Assembly: GCA_022402445.1 (NCBI GenBank)
Contig: JAKRSF010000013.1
Coordinates: forward strand, 186,001-250,000
Source: Cyanobacteriota bacterium
GTDB taxonomy: Bacteria > Cyanobacteriota > Cyanobacteriia > CACIAM-69d
Direction: 5' to 3'
Length of the DNA: 64,000 bases
Under the pieces are notes generated by a model that was given only the letters and a program-made list of their open reading frames with translations, was not told where the DNA came from and made no database searches. Shown piece after piece: positions 49,311-63,909 of the stretch. How positions within the stretch are numbered: position 1 is the first letter of the stretch; each line of letters begins with the position of its first letter. A program made the position numbers and the translations under genes.

Positions 49311-51503
49311 CTACTTTTCCGCAAAGGTCCAGGTGCCATCCCACCCCGGCGGCAGGCCCGTCACCAGCAGGCGATCGATCCGCTCCAGGTAAAACCGCGC
49401 CGCCACGTCCCCCGGATTGCGGGTCATGACCGCCTGGAAGTGCCGTCGGGCAAGGCCCAAATCCCCCCGAGCAAAGGCGCGGTAGCCGGTTTCAAATTCC
49501 ACCGCCGTTTGCTGTTTGAGCGATCGCGCGGGCTCCACCTCCGCATCCAGCACCTCATAGATGGCGATCGCCTCCGACCGGCCTTTGACGATCACCCGAT
49601 CCAAAAACCGTAACTGATACCGATCCGGATGCTGGAGCCGCTCCAACAGCGCCCCCGAAATCAGCAGCGACGCCCCATAAAACTTCGTGAGTCCCTCCAG
49701 CCGCGCCGTCAGGTTGATGGTGTCCGATAGGGCATCCCCCTGCATCCGGTTGTATTCCCCCACCATGCCCACCATCACATGGCCCGCGTGGATGCCCATG
49801 CCGACGCGGATCGTGGTCTGGCCAGCGATCGCGCGCTCCTGGTTCAATTCCCGAATCCGCTCGAATTGCGCCAGGGCCGCCGCGATCGCCCCATCCACCG
49901 CCTCGGGGAACACGGCCATAATGCCATCCCCCAGAAATTTAACGATCGTGCCCCGATAATGGCGAATTTCCGGCGCAACCCGCTGCAAATATACATTGAC
50001 AAAATCAAAGCTTTCCTGGGGCGTCATCTGTTCCATCATGGTGGTGAAGGAACGGATATCGGAAAAGAAGACGGCCATGTCTTTGCTCACATGGTCCCCC
50101 AATTCAATATTGAGGATATCTTCGCGCCCTAGAAAGTTGAGATATTCCGGCGGAAAAAAGCGGGCAAAGGAATCTTTTTGGACTTCCAGACTGCTAAAAG
50201 ATTGCTCCAGTTGCGCCGCCATACTGTTAAAGGATTGGGATAATTTATCCACCTCATTAATGACGAGATATCCCATGGGCGGCACCCGCTGGGCGAGGTT
50301 GCCCCCCGCGATCGCTTCAGAGGCTTGGGTGAGGTTACCGATCGCGCGGCTGATCCAGCGGGACGTAAAAATGCCGGAAATAATCGACAGCACCAGGGCG
50401 ATCGCGCAGAGGATGAGGGTTTGGCGCAAACCAGCCTGGATGCGGTCCATAAAATCCGCCTCCGGCACCATCACAATGATCAGCCAATCAATGCCGCGCC
50501 CATCTTGGACAGGCAGCACTTCCATATAGTGGCGATCGCCCTCCACCTGCACATCCATCTGCACCGACTCCCGCACGCGAATCGGCTGGCCAAAGCGATC
50601 GCTCAGGGTCGCCATGGCCGCCCGCAGTTGGGGAGTTTGGCTCTGGATGGCCGCCAACCGGCGCGGCTCCTCATCCCCCTTGCCCGCAATCAGGGGCGGC
50701 TCCGACGTGGATCCAGCCACCATCAAACCATCGCGATCAATGATGAACGCTTGGCCGGTTTTACCCACCTGCAACCCTTGCAAAAATTGGCTGATGCCCG
50801 CTAGGGGTAAATCGCACAGCAGCACCCCCAAAAAGTCGCGATCGCCCCCATAGATCGGCAGCACCGCCGACACATCCAACCGTTGCCCAATGGCCGACGG
50901 CTGAATCTCACTCCAGGCAAAACTCTGCCGCGCCACCGCCAACCGATACCAATCCCGCGATCGCGCATCATAGTTCGGCCGCTCCCGCAGCACCCGCCCC
51001 AACTGATCGCCATCCGTAATGGCAAATCGCCGCAGGGCACTCCCCGTCGCCCGCGTCGAAGCCACCGCATAATTTTCTAACCCATTAGCCCCAATAAACT
51101 CCCCCTCCCGATTCGCAAATGCCAACGTTCCTAGATCATTAAACAGCCGACTTTGGCTCAAAAAATGGCGCTGCAACGCCTCAGAATCTTGAATAAGCGT
51201 TGGATTATTTTTAAAAAATTGAGCATTGAGATTATGGATAAAATAGGGCTCCTCCAGGTACTGCTTCACCTCATCCCGGACCCGGTTCGCCACCTCGCGC
51301 CGCAACTGGCTCGCAATATCATTCACCGAAGCCCGACTATTCCACAGGGACAGGCCCCCCACCAGCCCCACCGCCACCGTCAACTGCACAACAAAAGGCA
51401 AAACCAGCGTCGTTCGCAGCCGCAAATGGTAGCGGGGGCGCTGAACGGAAGCATCGCTGGTGGCATCGGGGGGCGGAACGACTTCTAAAAAAGCTTGGCT
51501 CAC
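49311..51503 (-). CDS. Class III adenylate/guanylate cyclase with dCache sensor
   Basis: The protein has an N-terminal helix (about 30-52), an extracytoplasmic dCache region (about 55-350), a second helix (about 365-390), a HAMP domain and a cyclase domain (about 455-640) with both metal Asp residues (FFSDIRSF and LGDGIMAVF). A TPR-like C-terminal tail ('GYRAFARGDLGLARRHFQAV') closes the 730 residues. The start is GTG 51503. It probably converts an external signal into cAMP. ATP versus GTP specificity was not determined. Confidence 0.93.
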   Translation of the reverse strand: MSQAFLEVVPPPDATSDASVQRPRYHLRLRTTLVLPFVVQLTVAVGLVGGLSLWNSRASVNDIASQLRREVANRVRDEVKQYLEEPYFIHNLNAQFFKNNPTLIQDSEALQRHFLSQSRLFNDLGTLAFANREGEFIGANGLENYAVASTRATGSALRRFAITDGDQLGRVLRERPNYDARSRDWYRLAVARQSFAWSEIQPSAIGQRLDVSAVLPIYGGDRDFLGVLLCDLPLAGISQFLQGLQVGKTGQAFIIDRDGLMVAGSTSEPPLIAGKGDEEPRRLAAIQSQTPQLRAAMATLSDRFGQPIRVRESVQMDVQVEGDRHYMEVLPVQDGRGIDWLIIVMVPEADFMDRIQAGLRQTLILCAIALVLSIISGIFTSRWISRAIGNLTQASEAIAGGNLAQRVPPMGYLVINEVDKLSQSFNSMAAQLEQSFSSLEVQKDSFARFFPPEYLNFLGREDILNIELGDHVSKDMAVFFSDIRSFTTMMEQMTPQESFDFVNVYLQRVAPEIRHYRGTIVKFLGDGIMAVFPEAVDGAIAAALAQFERIRELNQERAIAGQTTIRVGMGIHAGHVMVGMVGEYNRMQGDALSDTINLTARLEGLTKFYGASLLISGALLERLQHPDRYQLRFLDRVIVKGRSEAIAIYEVLDAEVEPARSLKQQTAVEFETGYRAFARGDLGLARRHFQAVMTRNPGDVAARFYLERIDRLLVTGLPPGWDGTWTFAEK

Positions 51504-55056: not shown

Positions 55057-55431
55057 CTACCGCGATCGCAAATCTAGGGCAGCAACGGAGGCGGCCCTTG
55101 CCGCCAAGGCACTATCACTTTCCGTCGTGCCAGAAACCTTGATGAGCTTCGCCAACTCCTGAAGCTGGGCCACCGCTTCGGCCCCTTCGAGCTTCATCAG
55201 TTCGCGATCGTCGCGCATCTCTGTCCAGGTGATGCCGTAGTCAGAGACGAGGAAGCGAATCAAATGGTTATCGCCTAGGCTCACCATAAACGATGCACTG
55301 TTCATTTGATCGCCACAGGTGTAGCAGGATGCCAGATATCCTCGTCGCTCTAACACAATGGCTAAGGCTTGGAGGCTCATGACCAGATCCCGCACGAACT
55401 GACGGTGCTGTTCGGCAAGTCTTAGAAACAC
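55057..55431 (-). CDS. DUF1815 protein
   Basis: The first ~100 of 124 residues match a cyanobacterial family I recognise as DUF1815: 'LAEQHRQFVRDLVMSLQALA', 'YLASCYTCGDQMNSASFMV', 'LIRFLVSDYGITWTEMRDDR'. The two Cys in SCYTCGDQ might bind metal; this is inference. The start is GTG 55431. A Fur-box-like AT-rich site lies about 170 bases upstream. Function unknown. Confidence 0.82.
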   Translation of the reverse strand: MFLRLAEQHRQFVRDLVMSLQALAIVLERRGYLASCYTCGDQMNSASFMVSLGDNHLIRFLVSDYGITWTEMRDDRELMKLEGAEAVAQLQELAKLIKVSGTTESDSALAARAASVAALDLRSR

Positions 55432-55783: not shown

Positions 55784-56002
55784 TTAGTTGGCCAGTTCCC
55801 ACCAGCCCAGGCCCGGTCCAATGAAGCGGATGGTCACCCACAGGGCGATCGCGAGGCCAATGCCGATCCAGGCCCCGCGACTGGTCCAGGCCACAAAGTC
55901 CGCCGACTGCTTTTTGGTGATGGGAATACCGGGCAAAATCCGGTCCACATCTTTGCCGTAGTCGTCACCGAGGATGGTTTTCCGCCGTTTGGATTCTCCC
56001 AT
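55784..56002 (-). CDS. DUF2839 membrane protein
   Basis: The 72-residue protein begins MGESKRRKTILGDDYG, then 'DRILPGIPITKKQSADF', and ends with one transmembrane helix ('GAWIGIGLAIALWVTIRFIG') and WWEL. This is the DUF2839 pattern of cyanobacteria. Function unknown. It stands alone on the minus strand. Confidence 0.85.
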   Translation of the reverse strand: MGESKRRKTILGDDYGKDVDRILPGIPITKKQSADFVAWTSRGAWIGIGLAIALWVTIRFIGPGLGWWELAN

Positions 56003-56182: not shown

Positions 56183-57838
56183 CTAGGGCCCTGGGGTCGG
56201 AAAGAGCCAGTGGGGATCGAGGTAGCTGGTGCGGGCGATGGGGCTGAGGGCTCCGAGGACTTGCTGGCCGTAGCTGCGCCGCACCACCCGCGTATCGAGC
56301 AGGGCAATGAGGCTGCGGCGATCGCCGGGGGAGTCGCGATCGCCCGCCCGCATGGGGGCCACCGCCCGTTGCAGTTCACTGAGGGCCGTCGGCAGCAGGT
56401 ATAGGCGAAACCAGTCCCGCCGGTGGCGTTTGTAGTTGTCCACCCGGGCCGCCACGCGGGGATCTTCGAGGGAGGGGATCGGCAGGGCGGTGATGATCAA
56501 GAGGGTGGGGACGGGGAGATGTCGCTGGCGATCGCGCCAAAATTCCCAGCCGGTGACGAGGATGCCGTTGTCGTCGGGGCAGGTTTCTTCGACGCGCACC
56601 CGCCGGCCAAATTCCGCCGCGAGGTGGGAGCCCACCTGGGCCTTGAGGGGCACGTCCCCCACGAGGATGACGGTGAAGCCGCCGCCGGTGGGATGGTTGC
56701 CGTAGAGCCCCAGCAGGGCATGGATCTGTTGCAGCAGCGCCCGTTGGAAGTGGGGGGTGTTCGGAAAGGGCAGGTGTTCGGGGAGGTAGAGCTGGAGGGA
56801 GTCGCTGTGGCGATCGGGCAGGAATTTGAGGCAGGTGGCGCGATCGCGGTCTTGGTTGAAGTCCTGATCGCTGCTGAGGTCGCGGTCTTGGTCGTGATCC
56901 TCAAAGCCGATGCGTTCCTTAAAGGTGACAGCTTCCGGGTCGGGATCGAGGACCGGGCCGATCAGGACCACGGGCTGCTGGGGCCACAGGGGGGCGAGGC
57001 GATCGGCGACGGTGACGGGGCTGGCGGTGAGGCGAAAGAGGCCCGTGCGGCGATCGGTTTCCGCCATGGGGATCCAGCCGTCGCGGGTGAGGGTGGGGGC
57101 GAAGGCGCGCCAGGGGCCGGGGAGGGGGCCGGTTTCCTCCAGTTGGGTGAGCAGGTCCAGGAGGATCTGGCGATCGCCGGGGTCGAGGGCGCAGCAGTGG
57201 TAGGGGTTGGCGGGCCGCTGGAAGAGGCTGTGGGTGAGGGCGACGCGGCGATCGCGGATGGGGTTGGCGGCGTCAGGGCGGGCCAGCATCAAGTCGTCCC
57301 AGTCCCTCGGGGTGAGGGTTTTGGTGAGCCAGTCCCGGCACCAGGATTCGAGATCGTCGGCCCCATCGATGACCGTTGCGAGGCCCGCGAGGCGGCGGAC
57401 GGGGCTGAAGGCGTCCTGGAGCCACTGTTGGGGGGAAATGAGCAAAAGGCCGTGGGGGGCGATCGCGCGATCGGTCCCGCTGAAACCGTGGCTGAAGCTG
57501 GGGGAGTCAGGCCAGAGATGAATCGGTTTGGGCTGCCAGTGGGGCAGGGTTTGGAGCCAATCCTGGAGCTTGGGGAGTTCCACCTGGCGCAGGCGCTGCT
57601 GCACGGCTTCGGGGGCAACAATCACCACCGGTTCTGGCCACAGGAGGGCGGGGGCTAGATAGCTCAGGCGGTGGCGATCGCAGCCCATGGCCGTGCCCGT
57701 TTGCAGAATGGCGCTGCGCCGGAGCCGCATGGCCCGAGCCACCAGTCGCGCCATGGTCAGGTGGTGCGCCCAGGATCGTTCTGACTGGGCCGCCCGCAGA
57801 AAGGCGCGGAGTTGTTGATGGACCTCGACTTCGATCAC
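56183..57838 (-). CDS. Rad3/DinG-like helicase with degenerate Walker motifs (pseudo-helicase)
   Basis: Alignment by eye to XPD/DinG helicases is clear at both ends: 'LVARAMRLRRSAILQTGTAMG' parallels motif I, 'VVIVAPEAVQQRL' motif Ia, VIDGADDLESW motif II, and 'ILVTGWEFWRD', 'LLIITALPIPSLEDPRVAAR' and 'LIALLDTRVVRRSYG' the C-terminal motifs. In motif I the GKT is replaced by MGCD, and the DEAH box is replaced by DGAD, so ATP hydrolysis is unlikely. No Fe-S cluster cysteine cluster is seen. The start is taken as GTG 57838 (VIEVEVHQ). It is divergent from the TPR gene. Confidence 0.7.
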   Translation of the reverse strand: MIEVEVHQQLRAFLRAAQSERSWAHHLTMARLVARAMRLRRSAILQTGTAMGCDRHRLSYLAPALLWPEPVVIVAPEAVQQRLRQVELPKLQDWLQTLPHWQPKPIHLWPDSPSFSHGFSGTDRAIAPHGLLLISPQQWLQDAFSPVRRLAGLATVIDGADDLESWCRDWLTKTLTPRDWDDLMLARPDAANPIRDRRVALTHSLFQRPANPYHCCALDPGDRQILLDLLTQLEETGPLPGPWRAFAPTLTRDGWIPMAETDRRTGLFRLTASPVTVADRLAPLWPQQPVVLIGPVLDPDPEAVTFKERIGFEDHDQDRDLSSDQDFNQDRDRATCLKFLPDRHSDSLQLYLPEHLPFPNTPHFQRALLQQIHALLGLYGNHPTGGGFTVILVGDVPLKAQVGSHLAAEFGRRVRVEETCPDDNGILVTGWEFWRDRQRHLPVPTLLIITALPIPSLEDPRVAARVDNYKRHRRDWFRLYLLPTALSELQRAVAPMRAGDRDSPGDRRSLIALLDTRVVRRSYGQQVLGALSPIARTSYLDPHWLFPTPGP

Positions 57839-58135
57839 GGGGCGGCGGCGGGGCGGCGAATGGCGAATGTTCTCTAGCGTGGCACAAAAGCGACGCGGAG
57901 ATGGGGGGATGGACTGGCGGGGCCACAGGGTAGCAGGGCCACGGGGCGGCGGGTCCACGGGGCGGCGGTGCGATCGCGATTGTCCTGACTCGGGGCGATC
58001 GCCCTGGAAGGATTGGGTACCATCGGGGGCTCATGGTTTGGTTGGGCAACGGCCAAGGCTGCCGTTCGCCGGTGGGTTGCTATCTACGCCGATCCTTTCA
58101 CCCCATCTCCGTTGCCAGAGCGCTGAGCGATCGCC

Positions 58136-60235
58136 ATGCAGACCACCCTCCCCCGTGTCCATCTTTCCCCGCGATCGGCGGTGACCCGTACTCCGGGGGC
58201 TTCCTTGGCGGCGGGCTCCCCGTGGAATCAGCAGGTCTATGGCCGCTTGCAGCGGACGCTTCAGGGGGCGGCGGGGCGACGATCGCGCCTGTTGGCGGTG
58301 TGTGATGATCTGCGGGAGCGCGATCGCCTGGTGCAGCGCCTCGATCACGACTGTGGTTCCTTGGGCATGGCGCTTTTGCCGTCACCGTTCGGGGTGGCGC
58401 GATCGCGGGAGGCGGCATCCATGGCCGTGCCCTCCGTGGTGCAACTGGATCCCCATGGCCCAGGGCCAGCCCCCGTCACCGCCACGATTGAGACGGCCGT
58501 CGCCCGCGCGATCGCCCCCCAGGACTCCACAACAGAAACCCTGGCCCTGCTGCAACTGTGCGGCATTGAGCAGTTCACCCGCCTGTCCGCCCGCCATCAA
58601 CAGGCCCTGCTGCGGCAACTGGACGACGGGGCCGACCGGATGGCGATCGCCCCCGTGGCCTGGGTGATTTGGCTGCCCCGGCCGTGGCTCGATGCCATTC
58701 GCCAGTCCGCCCCCCGGCTGTGGGCATTGCAGACGGCGACCGTATTTGAATTTGAGGGGGATCCCACCCCGACGCCCCTTGCGTCCCCTGCGGATCATCG
58801 GCCTGCAGCGCTAATCACGTCCCGGCCCGATGGGTGGCGATCGCCCCTGCGCCTCGATGGAGTCATCTCCCAATCCCCCAGAATTGCGACCGCACCCGAT
58901 CCGTTCCCCAGGGCGCACCGCCCCGCGACCGGTGCAGGGGTCCATTGGCGACCCGGCTGGCGGGCCTGGATGCGATCGCTCCAGAACACCCCGGACCTGG
59001 GGAAGGGGGATGGGGACCTTCAGGAGCTAGAGCGGGCCTGTGGTCTGGGCTGTCAACTGCTGGAGCGGACGGATCTGACCCCGGCGGATCGGGGGGAATT
59101 GCTGGCGGATTTGTCCCGGTGCTTCAGTTTGCAGTTGGCCTATTTGACCCAGGTTGCCCCGGCGGCCCCTGTCGATCGCCAACGGTGGCAGCGGGTTTGT
59201 GAGCAGGCGATCGAGGCGACCCAACGGGCGATCGCCCTGCTGCCCGAGCGGTTTGCTGAGGGGGTGATTTCCCCTGGGGATGGTGGGGATTTGGGGGTGG
59301 AGGATCGCCCCACGGCCGCCGCGATCGCCTTTGATCTGCACCGCCGCCTGGGGTATTTGCTGACGGAGCGGGTGCGGCAGGGGGTCAATGGGGCCGCCGG
59401 TTGGCAGGCGGTGGTGGATGCCTACGGCCGCGCGATCTCGATCGCCACCGCCGAAGGGACGCCTCCGGATCTCGATGCCCTCATTGCCACCTACAACAAC
59501 CTGGGTACGGCCTACTGGAACCTGGCCCCCCACGACCCGACCCCCCAGGCGCTCCAGGGGGCGATCGCCGCCTATCGGGCCGCCCTGGCCTACTATGGCC
59601 CCTCGGACAGCGCCCTCCCCCCCGACGAGCGCTACGGCCTTCTGCAAACCAACCTGGGCACCACCTATCTATATCTCGCTAACCGGGGTGAAAACGGCCC
59701 CTGGCTGGATTTGGCCATTGAGGCGTTCCGCGCGGCCCTGCCCCATCGCCCCGTCGCCACCCACCCCGCCGCCCATGGGGCCACTCAACTGAATCTAGGT
59801 ACGGCCCACTGGCGGCGCTATCGCCAAATGGCCCCCACCGCTGCCCCCCAACCGCCTGCGGATTTGCTCCACGCGATCGCGGCCTACGAAGCGACCTTAC
59901 AAATCCCCGTGCCCGCCGACCAGCCCAGCCCGCCCTACCGCCGCGATGCCGCCCGCCATCTGGGTTTGGCCTACTATCACCTGGCGACGGTGTTTGGGTC
60001 TTGGCTCGATCGCGATCGCCGTCGCACGGCCCTAGAACGCGCCTTCCATGCCTACCGCCAAAGCCTGGATTTGCCCCCCCAAACCCATCCCCACCGGGAT
60101 CTATTAATCAGTGCCCTCCTGCGGACGCTCCAGGCGATCGCGCGGCAGGACGGCCCCGATGCCCAGCGCCACGCCCTCAATCAACTTCCCGGCCCTTGGA
60201 TTGCGCCAATTCTTGAGCAGCTCAAACCCCTTTGA
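58136..60235 (+). CDS. TPR protein with cyanobacterial N-terminal domain
   Basis: The N-terminal ~240 residues (from 'WNQQVYGRLQRTLQGAAG' and 'LLAVCDDLRERDRLVQRL') are alpha/beta and include WVIWLPRPWL, a layout like a P-loop domain without a Walker A. Residues from about 300 to 690 are TPR-like helices, with 'IATYNNLGTAYWNLA', 'LLQTNLGTTYLYLA' and 'HLGLAYYHLATVF' as clear repeats. It is probably a scaffold. The gene starts 297 bases from the pseudo-helicase start, head to head. Confidence 0.75.
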   Translation: MQTTLPRVHLSPRSAVTRTPGASLAAGSPWNQQVYGRLQRTLQGAAGRRSRLLAVCDDLRERDRLVQRLDHDCGSLGMALLPSPFGVARSREAASMAVPSVVQLDPHGPGPAPVTATIETAVARAIAPQDSTTETLALLQLCGIEQFTRLSARHQQALLRQLDDGADRMAIAPVAWVIWLPRPWLDAIRQSAPRLWALQTATVFEFEGDPTPTPLASPADHRPAALITSRPDGWRSPLRLDGVISQSPRIATAPDPFPRAHRPATGAGVHWRPGWRAWMRSLQNTPDLGKGDGDLQELERACGLGCQLLERTDLTPADRGELLADLSRCFSLQLAYLTQVAPAAPVDRQRWQRVCEQAIEATQRAIALLPERFAEGVISPGDGGDLGVEDRPTAAAIAFDLHRRLGYLLTERVRQGVNGAAGWQAVVDAYGRAISIATAEGTPPDLDALIATYNNLGTAYWNLAPHDPTPQALQGAIAAYRAALAYYGPSDSALPPDERYGLLQTNLGTTYLYLANRGENGPWLDLAIEAFRAALPHRPVATHPAAHGATQLNLGTAHWRRYRQMAPTAAPQPPADLLHAIAAYEATLQIPVPADQPSPPYRRDAARHLGLAYYHLATVFGSWLDRDRRRTALERAFHAYRQSLDLPPQTHPHRDLLISALLRTLQAIARQDGPDAQRHALNQLPGPWIAPILEQLKPL

Positions 60236-62109: not shown

Positions 62110-62958
62110 CTAGCGGGCACAAACATGGCTCGCATCCTCCGCCCGCTCCGCATAGTCCAGCCCCTTCGCCAAGCGCCACGCAAAAATCATCGGCAGGCCG
62201 CGCTCCAGGATCGCCGCACAGGTTTTATCCACCGCATAGGGCACCTCCCGCAGCTCCACCGCCCCCGACTCGTCATCGAACAGCACATAGGTGGCATGGG
62301 GCCGACCGTGGCGCGGCTCCCCCACGGACCCCGCATTGATCAAGTGGCGCACGGGGACGGTCACCGTATGATCCACCGGAGGGGCGTCCCCAGGAATGCT
62401 CCGTTGATCAGGGGCCTCGGCGATCACCGTCCGCAACTGAATCCCATCGAGCGATCGCGCATAGGGAATGTGCGTATGGCCACAGAACAGCACATCCGCC
62501 CCCGCCCCCAAAACCCGTTCGAGGGCCATGAACGCATCCATCTCCGCCAACAGATATTCATGGGCACTACTGGGGCTGCCATGGACAAACACCAGCCGCC
62601 CCGCCGCCGTCTCCAGCGCCAAACTCTCCGGCAACTGGGCCAAAAACGCGCGATTGTCCGCCGTCAGCACCCCATCAGTCCACCGGTGGGCCAACCGCCC
62701 CCGCCGTTCCGCCAGCAGGGACGGATAGCTACATTCACAGGCATTCAACCCCTCGACAATATCCTCATCCCAACAGCCCTGGACCGTCGGAATCGCCAGC
62801 GATCGCACCCGCTCTACCACCTCATTAGGGTAGGGACCATAGCCCACCAAATCCCCCAAGCAATGGATCGCCTCCGCCCCCTGCCGCTCCAGATCCAGCA
62901 GCACCGCATCAAACGCCTCCAAATTGCCGTGGATACAGGATAAAATTGCGCGCTTCAT
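62110..62958 (-). CDS. Metallophosphoesterase with Cys substitutions
   Basis: The protein has metallophosphoesterase blocks 'ILSCIHGNLEAFDAVL', 'CLGDLVGYGPYPNEVVERV', 'VQGCWDEDIVEG', FVHGSP and 'FCGHTHIP'. Compared with canonical sites, the first Asp (SDIHGN) is Cys and the Asn/His of GNHD is Cys-Trp (GCWDED). GD, HG and GHTH are kept. The start is ATG 62958 (MKRAILS); a longer frame to 63018 is less likely. It lies between a CobW-like gene and a degenerate paralogue, all on the minus strand. Confidence 0.8.
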   Translation of the reverse strand: MKRAILSCIHGNLEAFDAVLLDLERQGAEAIHCLGDLVGYGPYPNEVVERVRSLAIPTVQGCWDEDIVEGLNACECSYPSLLAERRGRLAHRWTDGVLTADNRAFLAQLPESLALETAAGRLVFVHGSPSSAHEYLLAEMDAFMALERVLGAGADVLFCGHTHIPYARSLDGIQLRTVIAEAPDQRSIPGDAPPVDHTVTVPVRHLINAGSVGEPRHGRPHATYVLFDDESGAVELREVPYAVDKTCAAILERGLPMIFAWRLAKGLDYAERAEDASHVCAR

Positions 62959-63024
62959 TCGATCATTCCCCGCCACTCTCGATCCGTTCACCCACCCAGG
63001 CCGCCCTGTCCAACCCATCCCCCA

Positions 63025-63909
63025 TCAGCCCATCTCATCCGCCCCCTGGGCCATCCCTAGATCCGTCTGTAGATAATGCTGATGGGCCATCAAAAGGTCA
63101 TCGTCTAGGGCAGACTGCTCCAAACCCAACCGCAAATCCGGCCGGTTGAGCCCCTGACCCACCACCTCCAGGGCGCTGGGGCGATCGGGGCGACCCACCC
63201 GGCACGGCTCCAGGGGCAGCTCCCGATAGACCGTCTCGCTCCCCCGGCGATAGTCAAAGGCAAACATCTCACCGTCCGCGAAATTTAATACCGCCTTGGC
63301 CCGATGCACGGTCCCATAGGCCCCTCCCAACAGTTCTTGCCAGAGCGTATCCAAACTGAGGGGGTCAAACACCTGCCCCGTCAGGTCCAACTGGAGCAGC
63401 TCCGGCGGCTGGGGCTCTGGCGGCATTTCAACCCCCTGGACCTGCGCCGTGGCCCAAGCTTCCCAGGGACCGGGCGACCCGTCGGGGGGCAGCACCACCA
63501 CCCGCTGTCCCCCCAGCCGTTCCAGTTGGGGCAGGCTGGCCATGGGATCGAGGTGGAAGCCGAATTCTAGAAAAACCACCGTCGGTCCGTCCCCTGGAGT
63601 CCGGGGGGTTGCCTCCGATTTGGCTAGGAGGTGCTCCGCGAGATGGCGATCGTCCCAGATGGTCACCGTGGGCCAGCGGGCCTGCATCAGGGTCCGATCC
63701 ACCGCGATCGCCCCGGCGGTCCAGTAGGCGATCGCGGCCTGATCCCCTTGAAGTCGGAACGGGCCATCGGCATCTTCAGCAAGTTGCTCCAAAATCGCCG
63801 CAATCCAAGTGGTCTTACCGGCACCGCTGGGGCCAGCCACCGCCACCACCGGCCCGAGGCCCTCGAGCCCCGTTCCCAAAACGGATGGATCGTATTGAAC
63901 TTGCCCCAT
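63025..63909 (-). CDS. CobW/G3E-like GTPase
   Basis: Residues 26-33 form a P-loop (GPSGAGKTT); 'VVFLEFGFHLDPMASL' matches the G3E Walker B region (E-x-G-x-x-DP), and the C-terminal part ('GAYGTVHRAKAVLNFADGEM', cited in part, then YRELPLEP) matches the CobW C-terminal domain. The CXCC metal-binding motif and a clear NKXD are missing, so it is an atypical member. At 294 residues it is short for the family. CobW proteins insert metals such as zinc or cobalt; here the metal is unknown. It leads two metallophosphoesterase genes, the first 66 bases downstream. Confidence 0.75.
   Translation of the reverse strand: MGQVQYDPSVLGTGLEGLGPVVAVAGPSGAGKTTWIAAILEQLAEDADGPFRLQGDQAAIAYWTAGAIAVDRTLMQARWPTVTIWDDRHLAEHLLAKSEATPRTPGDGPTVVFLEFGFHLDPMASLPQLERLGGQRVVVLPPDGSPGPWEAWATAQVQGVEMPPEPQPPELLQLDLTGQVFDPLSLDTLWQELLGGAYGTVHRAKAVLNFADGEMFAFDYRRGSETVYRELPLEPCRVGRPDRPSALEVVGQGLNRPDLRLGLEQSALDDDLLMAHQHYLQTDLGMAQGADEMG

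Follow-up and report, generated by a model that had tools for sequence, protein, structure and literature searches.

The closest described relative of the protein considered here is sDinG (short-type DinG), which was named in a 2025 review from Nostocales, Chroococcidiopsidales and Pleurocapsales (PMC11981726). In the available text of that review the ATPase activity of sDinG is doubted and no studies on its function are reported; DNA was placed only partly in the sDinG model, on the second motor domain, and the Nostoc protein has an extra helix, α3a, between β1 and α3 over the ATP site. According to the accessible part of the work on DinG, the P motif is a DNA-facing strand in the second motor domain, with F615 of this motif stacking on a sugar and F638 on deoxyribose (PMC6300356). 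The roles of YoaA residues K51, D225, C168, R619 and T620 were taken from the available text of PMC8378479, where R619 and T620 are described as needed for HolC binding.

The window, i.e. the whole 64-kb stretch of DNA that was analysed, harbours a gene which the initial annotation had described as a conserved DNA-binding scaffold of the XPD/DinG type that has dropped catalysis (Table 1). On the plus strand the frame of 56183-57838 contains stops, and the minus-strand frame is open at full length. The open frame reaches upstream as far as a GTG at 57958; the GTG at 57838 was taken as the start, since GTG is found at this site ('VIE...') in 76 of the 80 named homologues (TTG in two, ATG in one, not found in one). 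ATG occurs at the same site in other lineages, where starts were chosen by similarity.

Table 1. Positions of the pseudo-helicase gene, its motif regions and its neighbours within the window
Feature	Coordinates	Strand	Remarks
sDinG-type pseudo-helicase gene	56183..57838	-	551 aa + stop; GTG start at 57838
Vestigial motif I (Walker A) region	57650..57712	-	residues 43-63, AILQTGTAMGCDRHRLSYLAP; lysine lost
Vestigial motif II (DEAH) region	57341..57382	-	residues 153-166, TVIDGADDLESW
Vestigial motif III (SAT) region	56945..56974	-	residues 289-298; end = GPVLD
Vestigial motif V region	56504..56557	-	residues 428-445; Phe-Trp kept, Glu-Gly-x-Asp lost
P motif	56456..56494	-	residues 449-461; family pattern LPIPSLExP; second motor domain
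Phe477, DinG F638 equivalent	56408..56410	-	Phe in 157/157
Vestigial motif VI (arginine finger) region	56339..56386	-	residues 485-500; GRLIR -> APMR
DUF2839 small protein	55784..56002	-	72 aa; hydrophobic stretch (by eye); PF10999 E 2.2e-31
DUF1815 protein	55057..55431	-	124 aa; next gene downstream; PF08844 E 6e-55
TPR protein	58136-60235	+	divergent from the pseudo-helicase; starts 298 bases from its GTG

Several other features of the window were recorded as well. The motif GCGATCGC, which we take to be the cyanobacterial HIP1 repeat, is present in 239 copies, eight of them within the pseudo-helicase gene, these being raw counts. At 49311-51503 (minus strand) lies a gene for an adenylate/guanylate cyclase of the sensor type, which combines Cache, HAMP and cyclase domains. 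A calcineurin-like phosphoesterase gene directly adjoins one for a P-loop protein that gave weak matches to AAA/GTPase and CobW C-terminal domains (62110-63018 and 63025-63909, both on the minus strand).

The XPD/DinG-like framework proposed in the initial annotation is borne out by profile matches and by the predicted fold. Among NCBIfam models, YoaA matched residues 262-540 (E 5e-18) and four DinG-type models matched the protein too (DinG, E 8.8e-7), all far under the cut-offs; the sole Pfam match, Helicase_C_2 (E 3e-4), was also under cut-off, and PADLOC returned typeIV_DinG (E 3.7e-32) with its best stretch at residues 259-542. A sequence-only search of the PDB gave just chance matches (galactokinase). 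With the AlphaFold2 model, built from a 51-row alignment (mean pLDDT 86.9, pTM 0.87), the top Foldseek match was E. coli DinG with ssDNA (E 2.4e-18), and VIA-align 2 matched S. aureus DinG (Z 25.1, rmsd 3.6, 490 residues) and E. coli DinG (Z 23.6, rmsd 6.3, 497 residues), the best rows outside DinG/XPD being other SF2 helicases with Z of about 14. In the viral fold library the model matched DinG-like and other helicase entries, many of which are unnamed. Both RecA-like domains of the DinG fold are present in the model, a helical block (residues 177-250) sits in the Arch position, and neither an iron-sulphur nor a pseudo-iron-sulphur domain is found; residues 47-53 form a loop with no helix, and several other rows of the class have a longer loop there. 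The protein is thus predicted to retain an intact and complete DinG fold.

The catalytic motifs of this framework are lost. The Walker A site reads QTGTAMGCDRHR and the DEAH box DGAD, just as the initial annotation had it, and regular expressions run over the protein turned up no Walker A pattern and nothing resembling DEAH. In motif II (VIDGADDLESW) Asp158 is kept, the catalytic Glu is replaced by Gly159 and the His by Asp161; the arginine finger of motif VI is absent, its place being taken by Pro495. A decayed gene had been envisaged in case homologues kept GKT and DEAH. Homologues of the window's class keep neither, the motif loss being shared by the class and not confined to the copy in the window. 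The alignment examined comprised 93 loci. Of these, 79 are class loci of the gene (the genomes behind L024 and L028 occur a second time as L088 and L089, and L023 stops short of motif I), 11 are homologues found in the phylum's other classes and three are intact class paralogues. GKT/GKS or DEAH was found in none of the 79 class loci; GKS is present in all 14 other loci, 13 of which carry DEAH and one DEMH (L087), and all 11 homologues from other classes keep both GKS and DEAH. In two of the intact DinG-type class paralogues, L085 and L087, the first iron-sulphur Cys is Ser (KGRSHYVS and KGRQNYLS) despite an intact Walker A and DEAH/DEMH box.

Column counts were made over 157 class rows, among them near-copies and a number of repeated genomes, set beside 11 rows from other classes and the YoaA and DinG proteins of E. 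coli. The column of the Walker A lysine (K51), in a loop that is hard to align, holds no Lys (132 Tyr, 14 His, 9 Trp, 1 Ser, 1 gap), that of the motif VI Arg no Arg (148 Pro), and every row is gapped at the four Cys of the iron-sulphur insertion. In motif II, Asp158 is Asp in 135 rows, the catalytic Glu is Gly in 135 and Glu in 12 (L054-L056, L058 and L061-L068, where the Asp is replaced), and the His has become Asp or Glu in 155. The Glu of motif V is kept in two rows and its Trp in 156; altogether, the Q motif and motifs I, III, V and VI are all altered. The P motif is kept (Pro453 in 157/157, Pro455 in 150/157, Glu458 in 151/157), with Leu (76), Ile (68), Phe (10) or Val (3) in the DinG F615 column. 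Two arginines that hold DNA at the interface of the first motor and iron-sulphur domains of DinG (R117 and R211) have no Arg counterpart in any of the 157 rows. D158, D161 and E164 do not vary across the 51-row alignment and make up a new DGxDDLE block. As known for SF2 helicases, the loss of the lysine, the catalytic glutamate and the arginine finger should exclude ATP-driven stepping, and judged by its sequence the protein almost certainly lacks ATPase activity.

Intermediate motifs were found in families f14 (G018, G037, G225, G244, G253), f51 (G236) and f52 (G261). Walker A reads SGSGEHR in all five f14 genomes; motif II reads FDGAH in G018, G037, G225 and G244, FDCAH in G253, FDQAH in G236 and VDRAH in G261. 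The Glu of motif V is retained in the rows of G018, G225, G236, G244, G253 and G261, and motif VI is still VGRIR in the G236 row L199, which is not among the 157. Hence, the lysine has been lost in all rows seen and the glutamate in nearly all, the remaining motifs having eroded unevenly. In a 48-row tree a branch (100/100) of about 2.5 changes per column (1.94 + 0.53 around the midpoint root) sets the 30 class rows apart from all others; within the class, five rows of the half-decayed families group together weakly (84/54), opposite the other 25 (100/97). L069 and E. coli DinG are long rows in this tree, and vertical descent of sDinG from the YoaA-like gene of other classes is no more than one candidate origin. 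Other classes show GKS/DEAH, some lineages of the class SGSGEHR/FDGAH and the rest full erosion, a series that records the change from enzyme to pseudo-enzyme in an unusually stepwise manner.

The gene was found in 38 of 39 genomes of a sample of relatives and in 99 of 194 genomes sampled across the phylum, 88 of these belonging to the window's own genome, family or class and 11 to the same phylum. It is present in 88 of the 89 sampled genomes of the class, where the figure of 89 is the sum of 80 matching and nine non-matching class genomes in the DUF1815 search, which covered the same number of genomes, and the assumption that the unlisted misses include no further class genomes follows from the sort order. 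The one class genome listed without the gene, G027, was negative in a profile search too, and by the same kind of search the gene is absent from all five genomes of family f23 (G027, G218, G228, G247, G256). The record titles of the best 80 of 548 confirmed loci are all cyanobacterial. In the other classes, 13 of 58 genomes match the YoaA model at E 1e-80 or better; none of 40 class genomes exceeds 76 bits, and the best matches there are the pseudo-helicase gene itself. Another, intact-type match to the helicase domain (Helicase_C_2 above 90 bits) occurs in only 8 of 96 class genomes, namely the five f14 genomes, G236, G261 and G024.

The pseudo-helicase gene is under purifying selection: the median dN/dS is 0.106 (range 0.038-0.341) over 1297 pairs with dS of 0.1-1.5, pairs that share rows and are hence non-independent. 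The maximum belongs to an f2 pair (L069, L071). Mean pairwise identity among 65 non-redundant rows is 0.558 in the second motor domain, 0.471-0.480 in the first and 0.347 in the Arch; since the 11 active relatives show the identical order of domains (0.657, 0.578-0.602 and 0.502), the better conservation of the second motor domain is in itself no sign of a new role.

Downstream of the gene and on the same strand, a DUF2839 gene lies within 2.5 kb at 68 of 76 named loci and 48 of 77 other loci with room for it, and a DUF1815 gene at 48 of 71 and 20 of 64, respectively; the named loci are the best 80 of 548 matches, and the two sets share a few genomes. A divergent M48 peptidase gene is found upstream at 37 of 77 named and 19 of 72 other loci, and a divergent prephenate dehydrogenase gene at 8 of 77 and 13 of 72 (11 of the 12 loci L060-L071, families f12 and f2), with one example of each neighbour identified by Pfam. 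At loci L054-L059 (f33), L030 and L072 (both f14) the flanks searched contain none of these four neighbours.

DUF2839 is encoded in 85 of 188 genomes of the phylum, every match lying inside the class and G126 being the sole class miss listed; all five f23 genomes have it. In marine metagenomes, DUF2839 fell into a cluster with a photosystem I domain, according to the available text of PMC3597751. The f2 genomes measure 1.6-3.0 Mb, and in five of them (G006, G186, G188, G194, G162) one or two extra, weaker DUF2839 matches were seen. DUF1815 was detected in 80 of the 89 class genomes; it is missing from eight of the 88 that bear sDinG, all of them f2, and because of these eight it is no obligate partner. 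All five f23 genomes are without both sDinG and DUF1815. This joint absence suggests a link between the two, and since it possibly reflects a single event it is suggestive and no proof. A DUF1815 gene is described as cyanobacteria-specific in the accessible part of PMC5580265, its start site being transcribed more in a branchless phenotype. The DUF1815 protein of the window is 73-82% identical to 33 homologues adjoining sDinG genes, with an invariant CYTCG motif. Its predicted model (pLDDT 82.0) consists of a long helix and a five-stranded sheet, and no PDB entry reached E 0.001 in a fold search with this model. A working link of sDinG with DUF1815, as its first candidate partner, is put forward tentatively.

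Taken as a whole, the sequence and model data point to a DinG/YoaA-type helicase that probably turned into a folded non-motor protein before the sampled members of the class diverged. An ancestor of these members would have lost ATP hydrolysis while keeping the folded DinG body, and the iron-sulphur insertion would have been shed. The second motor domain, with its P motif, Phe477 and a conserved DWFR-LLP helix, could then serve as an ATP-independent binding surface by which the protein would hold single-stranded nucleic acid or a protein partner. Because the P-motif prolines and the sugar-stacking Phe477 are kept in this domain, a clamp or adaptor that acts on single-stranded nucleic acid without ATP is favoured, and on balance the protein may well bind nucleic acid. 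The DNA-binding scaffold of the initial annotation survives as an inference only, with the P motif and the F638 equivalent speaking for it and the lost interface arginines, together with the rarity of Phe in the F615 column, against it; the view of a conserved protein that has dropped catalysis is strongly supported by the class-wide motif loss and the purifying selection, and the link with the TPR protein found no support.

A close rival of the nucleic-acid clamp or adaptor is a pure protein-protein scaffold that keeps the DinG shape, binds no nucleic acid and offers its surfaces to DUF1815 or to a replication or repair factor. The lack of counterparts of R117 and R211, the frequent presence of DUF1815 next door and the Arg found in 139 of 157 rows in the YoaA R619 column are in line with it. 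So is a neutral to acidic isoelectric point (median of the 157 rows 6.1, compared with 6.7 for E. coli YoaA and 7.6 for DinG), which is not obviously that of a nucleic-acid binder. It is opposed by the retention of the P motif and Phe477 of the DNA path. As to the partner known from YoaA, Thr is found in just 9 of 157 rows in the T620 column and a HolC match in none of 96 class genomes, the window's included, with the E. coli and C. vibrioides controls matching, so that a HolC-type partner is unlikely. All in all, we consider the scaffold without nucleic acid a possible but minority explanation. Alternatively, ATP or another nucleotide might be bound at the remodelled site and gate a clamp without being hydrolysed. 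Asp158 in 135 of 157 rows, and the invariant DGxDDLE block, which indicates that the old ATP site is not simply drifting, would suit such a protein; however, the Q motif and motifs I, III, V and VI are all altered, several rows (e.g. L061-L068) have lost Asp158 too, and the review, in its available text, was unable to place ATP in the Nostoc model (PMC11981726), which together make this improbable.

The TPR protein is indeed divergent from the pseudo-helicase, and it is true that a regular expression finds no Walker A pattern in it, though such a pattern need not be expected there. A working unit of the two proteins could be read from their head-to-head position, 298 bases apart, and from their being side by side in G001 and G003 too. 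The TPR gene is beside the gene in 3 of 38 gene-bearing relatives (G000, G001 and G003, of the window's own family), however, and no TPR match adjoins it in the other 35. TPR matches occur anywhere in the genome in 28 of 39 relatives, about 20 kb from the pseudo-helicase in G002 and G004, and in 7 of 174 stretches, many of which have flanks of 1.5 kb only; two of the seven come from the window itself and two (L003, L094) apparently from a single contig. Rarity beside the gene across relatives and loci rules the TPR protein out as a conserved partner, and the chance of such a unit is very slight. Slighter still is the chance of a decaying pseudogene in the window's genome: the motif losses by themselves would allow it, but it is ruled out by the full-length frame, the same losses across the class, the median omega of 0.106 and the confident model.

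Returning to the ATP-independent clamp or adaptor, a broader reading would make it a core protein of the class, in which an ancestral DinG/YoaA-type helicase, having shed its iron-sulphur domain, came to be relied on by nearly all descendants for some nucleic-acid process peculiar to the class, alongside DUF1815 and possibly DUF2839. The iron-sulphur clusters of such helicases are of an oxygen-sensitive type, and the class makes oxygen. Against the binding-protein account as such stand the survival of family f23 without sDinG, the many loci without the neighbourhood, the catalytic Glu still present in 12 of 157 rows and the VGRIR of L199; the broader reading seems rather doubtful. In any case, the informative family matches of this near-universal cyanobacterial gene are to ATP-dependent helicases, yet it almost certainly encodes none. 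With sDinG and DUF1815, a function that very different cyanobacteria have kept can be tested on a small set of genes.

Utp25 and D. radiodurans PriA represent other helicase families, organisms and roles. Both are pseudohelicases by the titles of the respective papers (PMC9539457, PMC4504706). With E. coli YoaA and DinG the protein of the window shares the fold, the domain order, the P motif and a C-terminal DxR...YG block; unlike these active enzymes, it has eroded ATPase motifs and no 4Fe-4S insertion, and HolC was found in none of the 96 class genomes. The PADLOC match recalls CasDinG of type IV-A CRISPR, which has a merely vestigial iron-sulphur domain; as described in the accessible part of PMC10450177, CasDinG is an ATP-dependent translocase, whereas sDinG is a class-wide gene with DUF2839 and DUF1815 as neighbours. 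No functional study of sDinG was found in the open-access literature, subscription papers and supplementary tables being outside the scope of the search. In having two motor domains, a small Arch, no iron-sulphur domain, no ATP-binding residues and a cyanobacterial host, the protein fits the sDinG group as the available text of PMC11981726 describes it for Nostoc sp. PCC 7120. Helix α3a of the Nostoc protein is not seen in the window's model, and the family, present in 88 of 89 sampled class genomes, extends beyond the three orders named in that text. Relative to the same source, the class-wide range, the half-decayed rows, the DUF2839/DUF1815 neighbourhood and the joint absence of sDinG and DUF1815 from f23 are new.
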